Shown here: positions 12,659-36,265 of the stretch, piece by piece
How the letters are laid out: every line of letters starts with the position of its first letter
How positions within the stretch are numbered: the stretch's first letter is position 1
Assembly (NCBI GenBank): GCA_001940825.1
Contig: MSGT01000035.1
Coordinates: forward strand, 1 to 36,313
Length of the DNA stretch: 36,313 nt
DNA from: Sphaerochaeta sp. Phil3
GTDB taxonomy: Bacteria > Spirochaetota > Spirochaetia > Sphaerochaetales > Sphaerochaetaceae
Direction: 5' to 3'
The notes under the pieces: model-generated
The model's input: only the letters and a program-made list of their open reading frames with translations
What the model was told of the DNA's origin: nothing
Database searches by the model: none
Position numbers and translations under genes: made by a program

Positions 12659-13093
12659 ATGAGCTATGAAATGGACTATGAAAAGGAAAGGCAGGAAGCC
12701 ATATTCGCAGGCAAATGCGCACTTGAAAGTCTAAGAGACGCCAGAAATGAAATCTCCAAAGCCAAGACCTGGGGAGTCATCGACATCCTTGGAGGAGGTT
12801 TCCTCTCAACCTTCATGAAGCACACGAAGGTAAGCAACGCCCGCTCGAGCGTAGAGAGGGCCAAGTACGACCTACAAAGGTTCAACAGCGAGCTTAGGGA
12901 CCTTCACCTGGATCTGAACCTGGACATTGGAGACTTCCTCACCTTCTTCGACTTCATGGACAGCTTCCTTGCCGATGTCCTTGTCCAAAGCAAGCTCAAC
13001 GATGCCGCAAACAGAATAGACCAAGCCATACAGCGCGTGGAAACCATCCTACGCAACATCCAAGGAAACCACATCAACTACGATGGGCGTTGA
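12659..13093 (+). CDS. Conserved helical protein of unknown function
   Basis: This is a 144-residue protein I cannot name. It is predicted to be mostly helical and soluble: an N-terminal helix rich in Ala, Glu and Arg, a glycine turn WGVIDILGGGFLSTFMKH (about residues 38-56), and long amphipathic helices with heptad-like leucines (FNSELRDLHLDLNLDIGDF). A central KH-x-K motif follows the glycine segment. GGAG lies 8 bases before ATG 12659. Its last codons (Asp-Gly-Arg-stop) are written by the first unit of the decamer array at 13082-13151, and it faces the RAYT-like gene tail-to-tail. Confidence 0.7.
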   Translation: MSYEMDYEKERQEAIFAGKCALESLRDARNEISKAKTWGVIDILGGGFLSTFMKHTKVSNARSSVERAKYDLQRFNSELRDLHLDLNLDIGDFLTFFDFMDSFLADVLVQSKLNDAANRIDQAIQRVETILRNIQGNHINYDGR

Positions 13094-13151
13094 TGGGCGC
13101 TGTGTGGCGCAGTATGGCGTTGTGGGGCTCAGTAGGACGCTATGGGACGCT
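13082..13151. repeat. Left decamer array (seven 10-bp units)
   Basis: Seven head-to-tail units of exactly 10 bp: GATGGGCGTT, GATGGGCGCT, GTGTGGCGCA, GTATGGCGTT, GTGGGGCTCA, GTAGGACGCT, ATGGGACGCT. The array covers the stop codons of both converging genes (13091-13093 and 13140-13142). Its order of unit types is mirrored by the array at 13933-13992 on the other side of the RAYT-like gene. The units contain GTAG/GTGG, reminiscent of the conserved tetranucleotide of REP sequences, but they are direct repeats rather than hairpins. Confidence 0.85.
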
Positions 13152-13826
13152 GAAGCCAAACACCTTTGAGTTCATTTCAGGTGTCCAGTCTCCGAACCTA
13201 TGCTGAGCTTCAACCCAAACCTCCTTCTTCGAATGTGTTTTGTAGAACTCGTATAGCTCTTTGAATGGAATCCCAAAAAGCGCTTCATAGATGTCCTTGT
13301 TGTACGGAGGCTGGAAATGACCGTTCTCAAACATCCAAAAAAAACTGTACGGAGCGTTTTTCCCTTCGTTCTCCCTCGAAGAGGCATTGTCTTCAACATA
13401 CTTTCCAAGGAAGAAGAGATGCAGCATCTCTCGTATGACCGTATATTGAGGACGCTCGCAGAACAGACGCAGCCCCTTTCTTTGAGGGTATCTGTGCGAC
13501 ACATAGCGTACAAGGCTCGAATTGAGAGCCCTGTACATGTCAGAGATGTTCCTCCAATTCTTGGAGTATAGAACATCATGCGTATGGGTTGGCATAACCA
13601 CGGAATACAGCACCGCTATCTCGTATCTAATGCACAACTCACACATCAAGTGATTCCTGTAACGAGCTATATCGTTGTTGAAAAGCGCCATTCCACCCCA
13701 AGCTTTCTGAGTCGTGTGGTAGAAACAACCTTCCTTGTCGATATTGTTGCGCTTCGAATCTCCAGCAGATCCATCAGAAAAGGCTATGGAATCCAGGAAA
13801 CCAATGATTTTGTCTACATCGTTCAT
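13140..13826 (-). CDS. RAYT-like (REP-associated Y1/HUH) transposase
   Basis: This is a 228-residue protein resembling TnpA_REP, a single-strand-specific HUH nuclease that acts on REP repeats. Key features: FYHTTQKAWGG-x-x-LF (about residues 36-50), like the family's opening strand; VVMPTHTHDVL with the HUH pair His81/His83 (the family consensus is MPNHVH); and the helix DMYRALNSSLVRYVSHRYP. In my alignment the usual catalytic tyrosine position is Leu105, with Tyr108 three residues later, so activity needs checking. The C-terminal 90 residues are a family-specific tail. ATG 13826 is chosen for AAAGGAG 9 bases upstream. The gene sits between two inverted decamer arrays, one of which encodes its last codons (Ser-Val-Pro-stop). 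Confidence 0.75.
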   Translation of the reverse strand: MNDVDKIIGFLDSIAFSDGSAGDSKRNNIDKEGCFYHTTQKAWGGMALFNNDIARYRNHLMCELCIRYEIAVLYSVVMPTHTHDVLYSKNWRNISDMYRALNSSLVRYVSHRYPQRKGLRLFCERPQYTVIREMLHLFFLGKYVEDNASSRENEGKNAPYSFFWMFENGHFQPPYNKDIYEALFGIPFKELYEFYKTHSKKEVWVEAQHRFGDWTPEMNSKVFGFSVP

Positions 13827-13932
13827 ATTCGTGACTCCTTTACTTAAGGAATCAAGAAAACAGTGCATTTCCATTCTCGCACCCCAAAACGCCCCTTCAT
13901 TTTGTTGCAATACTAACATTTAAAGCGATTGC

Positions 13933-13992
13933 ACAGCGTCCTACAGCGTCCTACAGCGTCCTACAACGCCATACTCCGCCCATCAACGCCCA
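13933..13992. repeat. Right decamer array (six units), inverted to the left array
   Basis: Three identical units ACAGCGTCCT (13933-13962) are followed by ACAACGCCAT, ACTCCGCCCAT and CAACGCCCA. Read on the minus strand the order is GATGGGCG, GTATGGCGTT, GTAGGACGCT x3, the same order as in the left array, so the two arrays form a large imperfect inverted repeat around the RAYT-like gene. The array lies just upstream of an extended -10-like TGTTAGTAT (13910-13918, minus), where it would cover the -35 region. Confidence 0.85.
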
Positions 13993-14102
13993 AGAATGCA
14001 ATTCGCAGGGATTTGAGCCGTATTCAGGGACACCAACGAGGGATAGTACTCTGTTGTACAGTCCGAGTGCAGTGGCGCAGAAGACGACTAAAATCCCAAG
14101 AA

Positions 14103-15632
14103 TCAAACATCGAAACCCATCTGCAAGCAGAACCCAAACCGTGGCATGAACATTGCAACCAAGGGGCTGTCCGGAGTGTAGGCCTCCAAGTGGCGGGCCA
14201 CCTCGTAAGGATTGTGTATGAACGTCACACCGGCATTAAAGCCAATCTGGAACGTAGTACGTGAACTTGACAGCAATCCTTGAGGCAGCAATGAAAAGCC
14301 AAATTCCAAATCCATGGCGAACGAACACAACCTGCCTGTTGAATATGAGTGGCGGTAATTGTGTACAAGAGAATCTGAAACCATAAGGGTTTCGTTCATG
14401 TTCACAAGGTTCACAGCCTCCCACCTCATGACACCTGCAGAGACACAGACATAAGGCGTCACAAATCCATGCGTCGCATAGCTTTCGAAACTGTACTTGG
14501 CACCAAGGAAAGCACCATCGTAGTTTCTCTGGAATCGGCCCAGCAAAGCAGGATCCCTGCCGGAGGAAGCGTTCTCTGCATACGAAGGATTGCCGGATAC
14601 ATAACGATTCCTTATGACAAACGAGAAATTAGAATGCCCAAGAGGCAACTCCAAACCAACATCGAAGAACGTGACTTCCATCAAAGAAAGCTTCCCCAAG
14701 GAAAGAACGATATCGCTCTCGTACCAACGGGAAGGTTCGAACAAGGACATGATGTCAACGACTACGGTTCCATAGCCACGGCGTGTATCAAGGTTGCTGC
14801 TGTATCCAAGCCTCAGGAAACCGGCGTTCACATTGTAGCCCAGAGAGAGTCCCTGCATGTACTCGTCGTAGAGGATCGCAGACCTCCAATCAGACCTGGT
14901 CTGGGTCCACACATAGCCCACTGCAAACGAAAGGAAGTCCCCTTCATCGCCGCAGCAAAGACCTCGGTTCCAGCCTTTGATGGACACAAAGACATCGGCC
15001 TGCTGTCTATGGTTGAAACCTATGTTGTTGGAAAAGGCTCCCTTCACGCCAAGAACCAGCCTCGTGCGCCATGACAGAGGGACTGCACCACCTATGGCTA
15101 TCGTGCCGCCAAGGGATGCATAAGGCTTGTTGGAATCGGTTTCGTATTCGAGGTGGACCTGCGCCATGCCAAGTATACGGTGGACGGTGTTCTGAAGGAC
15201 CACATAGTTCTGGCGACCTATCACGGAGACTCCAAAGTAAGGCTCCATGTCAACGAAGAACCAAGGATTTCCAACCAGTTCCAACGGAAACCCCAAAAGG
15301 ATCTCCGTCACATCGTAGCGCCCGGAAATACGATTGCCGTCGCCTTTAAGCGAAGGATCCGTCACGCTCCAACCTTCCTGCCAGCCCCGGTTGGTGATTC
15401 CAAGCATGTTTACAGCAAGCTTCCAGGCGGGAGCCTCCAAAGAGAAGTATTCGGCGAACGAAAGCTGGTCGTCGTAGTCGAACGACATACCGCCTGACCA
15501 CCTGTCGTTGCCGGCTCCAATCATAAAGCTCTGGGGAACCCATGCAGCAGGGCAGCCATAGTCTCCAAAGGAAACGGCGGACAATGAGAAACCAACGAAC
15601 AACATAGCAATGACGAATGCAGCTTTCTTCAT
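14103..15632 (-). CDS. Predicted outer-membrane beta-barrel protein
   Basis: This is a 509-residue secreted protein with a clear signal peptide: MKKAAFVIAMLFVGFSLSAVS, with cleavage likely near residue 22-24. The mature part alternates short aromatic-rich and polar strands with Gly turns (for example LVLGVKGAFSNNIGF and CVSAGVMRWEAV) and ends in an amphipathic strand (FGFCLQMGFDV), as in outer-membrane barrels. No lipobox is present. I recognise no specific family; the role could be a porin or adhesin. ATG 15632 has ATAGGAG 6 bases upstream; an ATG two codons earlier has no spacing. It is the last gene of a minus-strand run with manA. Confidence 0.6.
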   Translation of the reverse strand: MKKAAFVIAMLFVGFSLSAVSFGDYGCPAAWVPQSFMIGAGNDRWSGGMSFDYDDQLSFAEYFSLEAPAWKLAVNMLGITNRGWQEGWSVTDPSLKGDGNRISGRYDVTEILLGFPLELVGNPWFFVDMEPYFGVSVIGRQNYVVLQNTVHRILGMAQVHLEYETDSNKPYASLGGTIAIGGAVPLSWRTRLVLGVKGAFSNNIGFNHRQQADVFVSIKGWNRGLCCGDEGDFLSFAVGYVWTQTRSDWRSAILYDEYMQGLSLGYNVNAGFLRLGYSSNLDTRRGYGTVVVDIMSLFEPSRWYESDIVLSLGKLSLMEVTFFDVGLELPLGHSNFSFVIRNRYVSGNPSYAENASSGRDPALLGRFQRNYDGAFLGAKYSFESYATHGFVTPYVCVSAGVMRWEAVNLVNMNETLMVSDSLVHNYRHSYSTGRLCSFAMDLEFGFSLLPQGLLSSSRTTFQIGFNAGVTFIHNPYEVARHLEAYTPDSPLVAMFMPRFGFCLQMGFDV

Positions 15633-23613: not shown

Positions 23614-24129
23614 TTAAGATTTGTTTTCCTTCAACGAAGGAGATTTGCTGCATTTGGACCCATGGGGCTGTTGGGGCTCTTGAAGACCGTTGAATTGCAA
23701 TTGAGTAGAGAGGTTTAGAGCGCATCTGATAGTACCTGTGTGAACCTTAACGTCCTGAAGAAAAGGAGAAGAATCACATCCTTCACATTCTTGTTCGTAG
23801 AAACATTCTCTATTAGAGAATAGCCAAGAGTTTTTAGCCTCATTTACACACGTTACGGCACAATAAACAAAAAAAGCGAGTAAGGCTAAAAAAAACAAAC
23901 AAGAGAAGAAGGTTCCAGATTTTTCCTTTTCGTCATAGTATTCTTCATTTTCATCATATTTGCGTTTGCAGTCTAAAGAACAACAACGATCACCTTCCCA
24001 TAAAGGAACAAATCTCTTGCCACAAACTATACAAAAGGAAGTACCTTCAAGGTCATCACTGCTCCAATCACTTTCCTTTTCTACCTTATACTCGTTTTCG
24101 CCAGTCTTTGTAACCTTGTAGTCCGACAT
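23614..24129 (-). CDS. Small zinc-ribbon, single-pass membrane protein (hypothetical)
   Basis: This is a 171-residue protein without a recognised family. It starts with a polar, acidic region, then a treble-clef-like cysteine pattern CIVCGKRF (Cys33, Cys36) and CCSLDC (Cys49/50, Cys54), likely binding one zinc. A hydrophobic segment (about residues 73-93) gives one membrane pass. The tail is cysteine- and serine-rich and ends with charged residues. GGAGG lies 5 bases before ATG 24129. The gene is AT-richer than its neighbours and sits beside the toxin-like locus, so it may be accessory DNA. The 3' end carries short G-rich near-repeats (ATGGGGCTGT, TGGGGCTCTT) that faintly recall the decamer arrays. 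Confidence 0.6.
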   Translation of the reverse strand: MSDYKVTKTGENEYKVEKESDWSSDDLEGTSFCIVCGKRFVPLWEGDRCCSLDCKRKYDENEEYYDEKEKSGTFFSCLFFLALLAFFVYCAVTCVNEAKNSWLFSNRECFYEQECEGCDSSPFLQDVKVHTGTIRCALNLSTQLQFNGLQEPQQPHGSKCSKSPSLKENKS

Positions 24130-24352
24130 ATAATCCTCCAAAATGAGTCTGGAGTAATCGTACCCCCCTGCATATTGTCAAGTGAAATTTCAAAAGGACA
24201 TGCAAGCTAAGAAACAAATGTTCTTCACCAAACCGGAAAAAACAGATTTATGAAGAAAGTTTTCTTCAGTTGAGTCGAAAACGAAAGAAAAAGAAGAAAG
24301 TCTTCCACCTTCCAGTACAAAAGAAGAACCCAAATATGCATTTTCGCAAAAC

Positions 24353-24381
24353 TTGACAGGTGGTGTTTCTTTTGCGATACT
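24353..24381 (+). promoter_or_regulatory. Promoter of the putative antisense RNA
   Basis: A perfect TTGACA (24353-24358), a 17-base spacer and GATACT (24376-24381). Transcription would begin near 24388 and run toward the terminator at 24440-24480. No plus-strand protein gene follows, so the product is probably a small RNA. Confidence 0.55.
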
Positions 24382-24387
24382 TCAAAT

Positions 24388-24480
24388 GGAAAGAGGCACC
24401 GCCTGTGGACGGAAACGACCTCAACCTTTTGTGAACGAAAACCGCTCAGCTGAGTTGACAGGACACTGGGCGGTTATTTT
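24388..24480 (+). ncRNA. Putative antisense RNA of a type I toxin-antitoxin locus
   Basis: The predicted RNA of about 93 nt begins after a TTGACA-N17-GATACT promoter and ends at a strong hairpin, AACCGCTCA (24440-24448) with TGGGCGGTT (24467-24475, one G-U pair), followed by ATTTTCT. It overlaps the 3' end and terminator of the tiny hydrophobic peptide gene on the other strand, so it could base-pair with that mRNA at its tail. This is the TxpA/RatA arrangement of Bacillus subtilis, in which the antisense RNA triggers destruction of the toxin mRNA. Ends are estimates. Confidence 0.5.
24438..24476 (-). terminator. Shared bidirectional terminator of toxin-like gene
   Basis: The same AACCGC...GCGGTT hairpin that ends the antisense RNA also works on the minus strand, where TGAGCGGTT is followed by TTCG. 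It overlaps the stop codon of the peptide gene (24474-24476). Confidence 0.6.
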
Positions 24481-24551
24481 CTACCATTGTAAGCCATTAT
24501 CAACAGGCTAAGGACTGTGAATACAATCATCAGCAATTCGAAATCGCTCAT
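24474..24551 (-). CDS. Putative holin-like toxin peptide (type I TA), 25 residues
   Basis: This tiny gene has a near-perfect ribosome site, AAGGAGGTG (24558-24566), six bases before ATG 24551. The peptide begins MSDFELLMIV, continues with an unbroken hydrophobic stretch (FTVLSLLIM) and ends AYNGRK, with a short basic tail. The acidic start, single membrane helix and lysine/arginine end match the 'putative holin-like toxin' (Hol_Tox) and TxpA/BsrG-type peptides of Firmicutes, which depolarise the membrane when over-produced. The gene sits alone between the nifU terminator and the zinc-ribbon gene, and a convergent RNA overlaps its 3' end. Family membership is by eye; the peptide is too short for secure similarity. 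Confidence 0.6.
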   Translation of the reverse strand: MSDFELLMIVFTVLSLLIMAYNGRK

Positions 24552-24629
24552 AGGCAGCACCTCCTTATCCATGCTTTCGAAGAATCGGGAGGCAAGCGTA
24601 ATGAGCATAATGCGCTTAGTGCACGAAAC

Positions 24630-24669
24630 AAAAAAGGACACAGACAGTACTACCTGTACGGCTGTGTCC
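24630..24669 (-). terminator. Terminator of the nifS-nifU unit
   Basis: GGACACAG (24636-24643) and CTGTGTCC (24662-24669) form a perfect 8-bp stem, with an inner GTAC/GTAC pairing. On the minus strand the stem is followed by TTTTTTGTTT. It lies about 150 bases after the nifU stop. Confidence 0.75.
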
Positions 24670-24814
24670 GAACTGACGACGTAATGCGCGTAAATTCCTA
24701 GAATGAACTCTCGCAGCTATTTTGGATCAACTACAAGGATGGAAACGAGGGGCAGTACTTCTCTGTACGGCTGTGTCCGAACTGACAACGTAATGCGCGT
24801 AAATTCCTAGAATG
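24645..24814. repeat. Direct repeat of about 61 bp, two copies
   Basis: Copies at 24645-24705 and 24753-24814 share a continuous core from CTGTACGGCTGTGTCCGAACTG through GCGCGTAAATTCCTAGAATG with a single G/A difference; the first bases differ by two substitutions and one indel. The first copy forms half of the nifU terminator. Both copies could encode short peptide tails ending Arg-Val-Asn-Ser-stop on the plus strand, but in shifted frames, so a decayed duplicated gene end is one reading. The 47 bases between the copies are unique. Confidence 0.75.
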
Positions 24815-24819
24815 GGTTT

Positions 24820-25428
24820 CTATTTGCCGTAGATGTGCTTGTACTCCTCAAACTGCAACGCCACCTTGCTCTTGCACTTGCCGCAGCCTGTGCCGTAGCC
24901 AGTGAGACGCTGGAGGTCTTCGAGGGTCTTGGCTTGGTCTGTTTTGACAAGCTCCTCTATCATCTGGTCGGTGACACCCTTGCACTCACAGATTATCTTG
25001 GCAACGTTCTTGCGGTATGGGTTGTCCATGCCGTTCTTTTCAAGATAGTCGTCTATTGCAGCACGCAGAGCCTTGTCTCCAAGGACGGAGCAATGGAACT
25101 TATGCTCCGGAAGACCGCCAAGGGCATCCGTTATCATGGAAGGGGTTATCTTGTAGGCCTCTTCAAGGGTCATGCCTTTGACAAGCTCGCTCATCATGGA
25201 AGTACTGGCGATTGCACTGGCACAGCCGTATGTAAGCCAACGGATGTCAGAGATTTTGCCGTCCTTGACCTGGATGCCAACGCGCATCTGGTCTCCGCAG
25301 GCAAGAGAGCCTACCTCACCAACACCCTGCGGCTCCCAGTTCTCTTCCTTCTTCCAAATGTTCCTAGGATTCATGAAATGATCCTTGACTGTATCGGTGT
25401 ATACCCACTGGGTCATGAAACTGTCCAT
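24820..25428 (-). CDS. nifU: NifU-like iron-sulfur scaffold (IscU domain plus BFD-like [2Fe-2S] domain)
   Basis: This is a 202-residue scaffold. Residues 1-130 are the IscU/NifU_N domain with the three cluster-assembly cysteines Cys44 (LACGDQM), Cys69 (YGCASAIA) and Cys113 (FHCSVLG). Residues 140-190 are a Fer2_BFD-like domain with Cys147/Cys149 (ICECKGVT) and Cys182/Cys185 (GTGCGKC), binding a permanent [2Fe-2S]. The C-terminal NifU (NFU) domain of classic NifU is missing. It builds clusters from sulfur delivered by NifS, encoded 86 bases upstream in the same direction. ATG 25428 is chosen because GAGG lies 5 bases upstream; open frame before it lacks the family start. Confidence 0.92.
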   Translation of the reverse strand: MDSFMTQWVYTDTVKDHFMNPRNIWKKEENWEPQGVGEVGSLACGDQMRVGIQVKDGKISDIRWLTYGCASAIASTSMMSELVKGMTLEEAYKITPSMITDALGGLPEHKFHCSVLGDKALRAAIDDYLEKNGMDNPYRKNVAKIICECKGVTDQMIEELVKTDQAKTLEDLQRLTGYGTGCGKCKSKVALQFEEYKHIYGK

Positions 25429-36198: not shown

Positions 36199-36265
36199 AA
36201 TCCGTACGTAATCCGTGCGCCCCATGAGTCCCATGAGCCCCGTGCGTTCCATTCATCCCGTAATG
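36199..36265. repeat. Third, diverged decamer-like array
   Basis: Units of 9-11 bp follow one another: AATCCGTACGT, AATCCGTGCGC, CCCATGAGT, CCCATGAGC, CCCGTGCGTT, CCATTCATC. On the minus strand they read ATGGAACGC, ACGGGGCTC, ATGGGACTC, ATGGGGCGC, closely like units of the array at 13082-13151 (ATGGGCGCT, GTGGGGCTCA, ATGGGACGCT). There is no gene here. The relation is by eye and the period is less regular than in the arrays around the RAYT-like gene. Confidence 0.5.

Follow-up and report, generated by a model that had tools for sequence, protein, structure and literature searches.

What does a RAYT-like transposase recognise when its gene lies between two mirrored runs of short direct repeats? 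Enzymes of the RAYT and IS200/IS605 types are taken to read hairpins folded from single-stranded DNA, and the window analysed here (a stretch of 36,313 nucleotides from Sphaerochaeta sp. Phil3) contains a gene of this kind, RAYT/TIRYT-like with a Y1 HUH domain, at positions 13140–13919 of the minus strand (259 amino acids; conserved domain from about residue 58). To its left are seven 10-bp units (13082–13151, plus strand), which we call family A and the inner end of which, GGACGCT, faces the gene; to its right are six units of the same family in inverted orientation (13933–13992, minus strand). This bracketing, with the 10-bp register kept, had been described in a first-pass annotation made from the sequence and is present as described. 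The annotation had also proposed that the left array writes the final codons of two converging genes, and this holds: the array contains the stop codon of a neighbouring gene for 144 amino acids (12659–13093, plus strand; no family match above the curated cut-off in profile searches) as well as the C terminus and stop codon of the transposase gene.

The protein has the residues expected of a Y1 enzyme. In an alignment of 25 homologues, H68, H112, H114, Y174, N178 and F194 are invariant; these include both histidines of the HUH motif that had been noted in the sequence (H112-T113-H114, codons at 13578–13586, minus strand) and the tyrosine and asparagine of a Y-x3-N motif (Y174 to N178, 13386–13400, minus strand). 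A profile search of PDB sequences matched the IS200-type TnpA 2ec2 (E = 1e-5), with Y174 aligned on the tyrosine of its KYIE motif. Because of this alignment and the invariance of Y174, we assign the catalytic tyrosine to that residue and not to the surroundings of residue 105; the earlier claim that it is away from its usual place (Leu105, with Tyr108 nearby) was mistaken.

Family models and predicted structure point the same way. On its own, the window protein hits the Pfam family Y1_Tnp with E = 5e-4, short of the Pfam cut-off, and 24 of the 25 relatives match this family. Its score against NCBIfam REP_Tyr_transpos (14.6 bits, E = 0.022) does not reach the curated cut-off of 80 bits; 16 of the 25 relatives match that model at E values of up to 0.01 (best, 6e-9), and by sequence comparison the clade appears to be a divergent branch relative to it. 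An AlphaFold2 model of the window protein (pLDDT 86, pTM 0.81) gave Foldseek probabilities of 1.00 to IS608, ISDra2 and 4er8. The best structural match was 4er8, the Escherichia coli RAYT bound to REP (Z 12.6, r.m.s.d. 3.7, 149 residues), followed by the IS608 and ISDra2 TnpA proteins; the matches to Thg1 and AAV Rep are at the level of common arrangement only, and weak PDB matches to viral nsP2 protease were taken as chance. The C-terminal part of the model is helical, and the full-length query matched no helix–turn–helix family. The HUH motif, the downstream tyrosine and the modelled fold support membership of the RAYT superfamily, and the profile check proposed in the first-pass annotation identifies the protein as a Y1_Tnp/RAYT relative.

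The arrays are not the palindromic hairpins of the GTAG-type REP/REPIN system, with one array (L027) perhaps excepted. Ten arrays fold like shuffled sequences or slightly better (z scores of +0.4 to −1.9) and L027 reaches −3.0. The REPs that accompany other RAYTs of spirochaetes served as controls and scored between −3.0 and −5.3; one of these REPs has a GTAG foot. The idea that facing arrays pair with each other as a general hairpin was dropped on inspection by eye, as the units of A and B look partly complementary and those of the pairs G/B and H/D do not.

Family A extends well beyond this locus. A search of the 2.36-Mb genome with a 24-nt decamer pattern (2 mismatches allowed) returned 55 matches, compared with 0 for the reversed control pattern, and about 16 loci with family A decamers are away from the gene. 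The pattern has no match in ten genus-mates and 26 further genomes of the family (36 in total), and few, at control level, in genomes of other families. The further decamer arrays for which a search had been proposed are therefore present, and the decamer is just one among numerous unit families, most of which have a period of 9 bp. The genome encodes five paralogues of the window protein (36–50% identical), each flanked on both sides by 9-bp direct-repeat arrays in inverted orientation, with a unit of its own (GGGCTTACT, TCTAGCCAT, TGTAGCATC, TGGGCGGAC and ATGGGACTC); including the window gene, six paralogues in one genome have six different words. The GTAG/GTGG core noted earlier is found in family A units and is not general, as most of the other unit families lack GTAG. 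With dispersed decamer arrays and a protein related to Y1_Tnp/RAYT, the evidence supports the suggestion that spirochaetes have a distinct REP-like system, one of wider extent than was claimed; RAYT relatives without palindromic REPs, the TIRYTs, were already known.

Pattern scans of the genome indicate that other unit families are dispersed as well, with 97 matches for TCTAG (control, 1), 88 for TGTAGC (control, 0) and 162 for a looser GGG pattern (control, 51). In 349 kb around array matches, 59 arrays have a period of 9 and 31 a period of 10; periods of 5–8, 11 and 13 occur two or three times each and period 12 occurs 11 times, a few of these rows being runs of N. All of these counts are minima, as they come from pattern scans and the stretches around matches, and they are biased towards families for which patterns were written. 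Families G (TCAGGTACNN), H (TGGTGAGCG) and I (AATGGTYGC) form abundant arrays, and no cognate transposase was found for them in the assembly (96% complete, 72 contigs); their enzymes may have been lost or remain unassembled, or these families may be mobilised by another route. A possible role for G-quadruplexes was dropped, as GGG runs occur only in some families.

Unit types had been said to occur in the same outward order on both sides of the gene. At the window locus this is weak (78% identity in the best register and 76% when shifted by one unit), but it is clear at two paralogues: the L002 arrays are 93% identical in register and at most 78% one or more units off, and those of L005 are 87% identical in register and at most 61% off register, with a perfect core of 49 bp. 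At L002 and L005, the left and right arrays are in-register inverted copies of each other.

The arrangement recurs in related bacteria. Eight of ten genus-mates have homologues, as do two further genera of the family, and among 296 sampled genomes of the phylum there are hardly any others; the named relatives are metagenome-assembled genomes of Spirochaetales, with rumen, yak abomasum and horse faeces as stated sources. A contig profile search with the single window protein returned no match, and the relatives were found with the alignment as query; a phylum-wide search with the clade profile recovered the copies of this genome and three weak matches without arrays, and nothing more. In an automatic test (in which a few loci lie near contig ends), arrays of the same period flank both sides of 17 of 28 genes in the clade, compared with 0 of 30 RAYTs from elsewhere in the phylum's RAYT set. 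Alignment adds L002, L003, L033 and, weakly, L041 to the bracketed loci; about 20 of the 25 relatives, from a few Spirochaetales genera, have such arrays; L032, L037 and L045 have none.

Across the relatives, the unit sequence differs from gene to gene. Its length is mostly 9 bp, with 10 bp in three (the window gene, L042 and L047) and 8 bp in the divergent L036 and L286; mapping the 10-bp state on the tree requires three changes, and well-supported branches force at least two of them. Like family A, two dispersed families of other genomes are local, confined to one or two genomes. TTGCA arrays number 55 in genome G009, 14 in G010 and 0 in the window genome, and GTGAGCGTCA arrays number 52 in G034 and 0 in G017, G009 and the window genome. 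In G010, which has TTGCA arrays, no transposase with TTGCA arrays was found.

Several of these loci have features of their own. The nearly identical transposases L028 (G010) and L043 (G009) have C termini written by a 9-bp array (QTHQTHQTPQ..). Among the divergent relatives, 8-bp arrays occur at L286 (1750–2013) and L036/L270, and at L036 two inverted 8-bp arrays lie 12 bp apart and form a near-palindrome. At L254 (about 760–1370, on contig 68 of G009), two inverted TTGCA arrays surround an open frame of about 100 codons, the translation of which resembles an XRE-type regulator; judged by its sequence, this cassette may be a mobile unit with cargo.

Away from the transposases, the dispersed arrays at the loci examined are solo or form mosaics of mixed families, and the only same-family inverted pairs are those of the transposase loci and L254, which has another gene in between. 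One ordered mosaic, a TCTAG array followed by a TCAGG decamer array and an inverted GGGC array, occurs at about nine loci, and the linker between the inner tags of the TCAGG and GGGC arrays is 9–10 bp in a dozen. At two loci on contig C4 this linker is 74 bp and contains one family A decamer array (net, 64 bp; no visible target duplication). This fits the gain of a solo array; it may also be a single event copied with its surroundings, or a loss elsewhere. Mosaics of 200–700 bp are repeated as wholes at approximately 60–88% identity. By simple ORF calls, array clusters lie between convergent genes in 17 of 57 cases, compared with 8 of 88 for array-free gaps.

We consider it likely that the gene and its arrays form one TIRtron-like element, in which a Y1/HUH enzyme of the RAYT superfamily recognises ends that are inverted, non-palindromic arrays of 9-bp (here 10-bp) direct repeats. 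The enzyme would probably occupy the repeated units as a series of equivalent sites, much as a replication initiator does on iterons, with Y174 nicking and rejoining a single strand close to where the array ends. As every paralogue would read a different unit, each would spread a separate family of non-autonomous solo arrays; these would settle at intergenic and 3′-end positions and combine into BIME-like mosaics. The arrays, their inversion, the one unit per transposase, the genome-specific dispersal, the modelled fold and catalytic residues, the modular mosaics with fixed linkers and the array in an otherwise short linker are observed; we infer binding, single-strand nicking and transposition by the cognate enzyme, together with the strand and the cut site. 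It could well be, although we would stop short of calling it probable, that the clade gave up hairpin recognition and reads phased 8-, 9- or 10-bp arrays, the word being rewritten repeatedly as the enzyme changes, and dispersed arrays and cargo cassettes being mobilised in trans.

The chief alternative is that the protein has been domesticated and that the array sites serve regulation. The arrays would then be autoregulatory or other host binding sites, for a domesticated transposase or for a different protein, rather than ends for transposition, and would have spread by recombination or gene conversion of intergenic mosaics. The predominance of solo and mixed-family arrays, the repetition of long mosaics as wholes and the abundance of families G, H and I without a transposase in the assembly all agree with such a history, but it does not readily account for inverted arrays on both flanks with a different unit for each transposase, for in-register inverted copies, for the modular extra array at C4 or for genome-specific families, and we regard it as unlikely. 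That mosaics exist without transposases would also suit transposase genes that merely inserted into pre-existing mosaic repeats as favoured landing sites. Such insertion predicts shared units and an array that is split rather than mirrored, whereas in many species both flanks carry the same family in mirror image with a unit private to the gene, which makes this explanation improbable.

Two more familiar kinds of repeat fare worse than the TIRtron-like reading. The GTAG/GTGG of family A units and the RAYT-like enzyme recall a conventional palindromic REP/REPIN system of the GTAG type, but most arrays fold like shuffled sequences, the REPs of other spirochaete RAYTs fold far better and GTAG is absent from most unit families; we consider such a system very improbable. 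Ordinary tandem repeats generated by slippage (VNTRs), or repeats kept by protein-coding selection, might explain a period of 9, which is a multiple of the codon, and the arrays that encode C termini, such as the QTH repeats of L028 and L043. This is hardly credible given that period 10 exists, that most arrays are intergenic, that units are diverged yet strictly phased with other periods rare in the same DNA, and that the families are dispersed and genome-specific with a set order.

The closest known kind of element is the TIRYT/TIRtron. In the portions of text available to us, Di Nocera et al. (2013; PMC3733652) describe RAYT-like genes between long terminal inverted repeats (TIRs), named TIRYTs and TIRtrons; some TIRs form dispersed families that are single, paired or clustered, one genome can have several TIRYTs with different TIRs, and a GGGGWSAS motif is common to some TIRs only and does not define the whole group. 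The available portions of Quentin et al. (2018; PMC6006769) place most TIRYTs in subclass 2.1, with a C-terminal helix–turn–helix domain. The window locus resembles these elements in having a RAYT-like Y1 gene flanked by long inverted repeats that bear no relation to GTAG REPs, and in the dispersal of the repeat as a family. It differs in that, on reading, GGGGWSAS is not in the window arrays, and those portions of text do not mention spirochaetes among the TIRYT hosts. We place the locus within the TIRtron kind as a variant, rather than as a separate kind, because 9- or 10-bp direct-repeat arrays are missing from the TIR descriptions in the same portions (PMC3733652, PMC6006769), which set it apart, yet the TIR sequences themselves may be iterated.

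With RAYT/TnpA-REP enzymes and their GTAG REPs, REPINs and BIMEs, the locus shares the 4er8 fold, the HUH motif and tyrosine, one repeat family per transposase, intergenic dispersal and mosaic clusters, but its ends are non-palindromic iterated arrays, and the dispersed copies are solo or of mixed families. IS200/IS605 TnpA proteins (IS608, ISDra2) share the Y1 HUH chemistry predicted from fold and residues and the lack of a clear target duplication; unlike them, this system has no subterminal hairpins and no multiple identical full-length copies, given how far its paralogues have diverged. HUH Rep proteins bind iterons or repeated motifs, as in plasmid Reps and in AAV Rep on GAGC repeats. The combination here of an HUH domain with neighbouring short, phased direct repeats recalls them in working principle only, as Reps are replication initiators and not RAYT kin in sequence. 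Literature searches on RAYTs with direct repeats, iterons with HUH transposases and Treponema tandem repeats returned nothing describing such arrays.

Mirror-image runs of 9- or 10-bp units in place of hairpins, together with their dispersed copies, suggest a new mode of DNA recognition for such transposases: the related enzymes here have hairpin-less ends on a strict 9- or 10-bp beat. They provide natural pairs of enzyme and site with which to study how the specificity of HUH transposases changes and how populations of REP-like elements originate. The arrays also explain many intergenic repeats of these gut spirochaetes.

The window contains further repeats. A mosaic of facing arrays at 23656–23749, B (9 bp) then G (10 bp) with a 9-bp linker, overlaps the 3′ end of an ORF (23614–24141) and writes its C-terminal codons; the product is small, cysteine-rich and probably a membrane protein. 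Near the right edge is a family F array (ATGGGACTC-type, 9 bp; 36212–36261, minus strand), with relatives in the arrays that flank the transposase at C64:11517. Immediately beside the right array of the transposase locus, with no gap of note, begins a dispersed non-array repeat of approximately 105 bp (ATTCGCAGG..ATTTGAGCCGTATTCA..; 13997–14103), with about ten further copies at 69–86% identity in the loci examined, several of them beside other mosaics; neither this repeat nor any other part of the window, nor L128 and L130, matched an Rfam family. Another dispersed repeat (24163–24834) is 83% identical over 450 bp to C46:40607–41044 and has an internal direct duplication of 62 bp (24645–24705 and 24753–24814). 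On contig C4, similar mosaics in opposite orientation (14597–14907 and 25018–25223) flank a 10-kb stretch of chromosome and may mark a composite element or the end points of an inversion.
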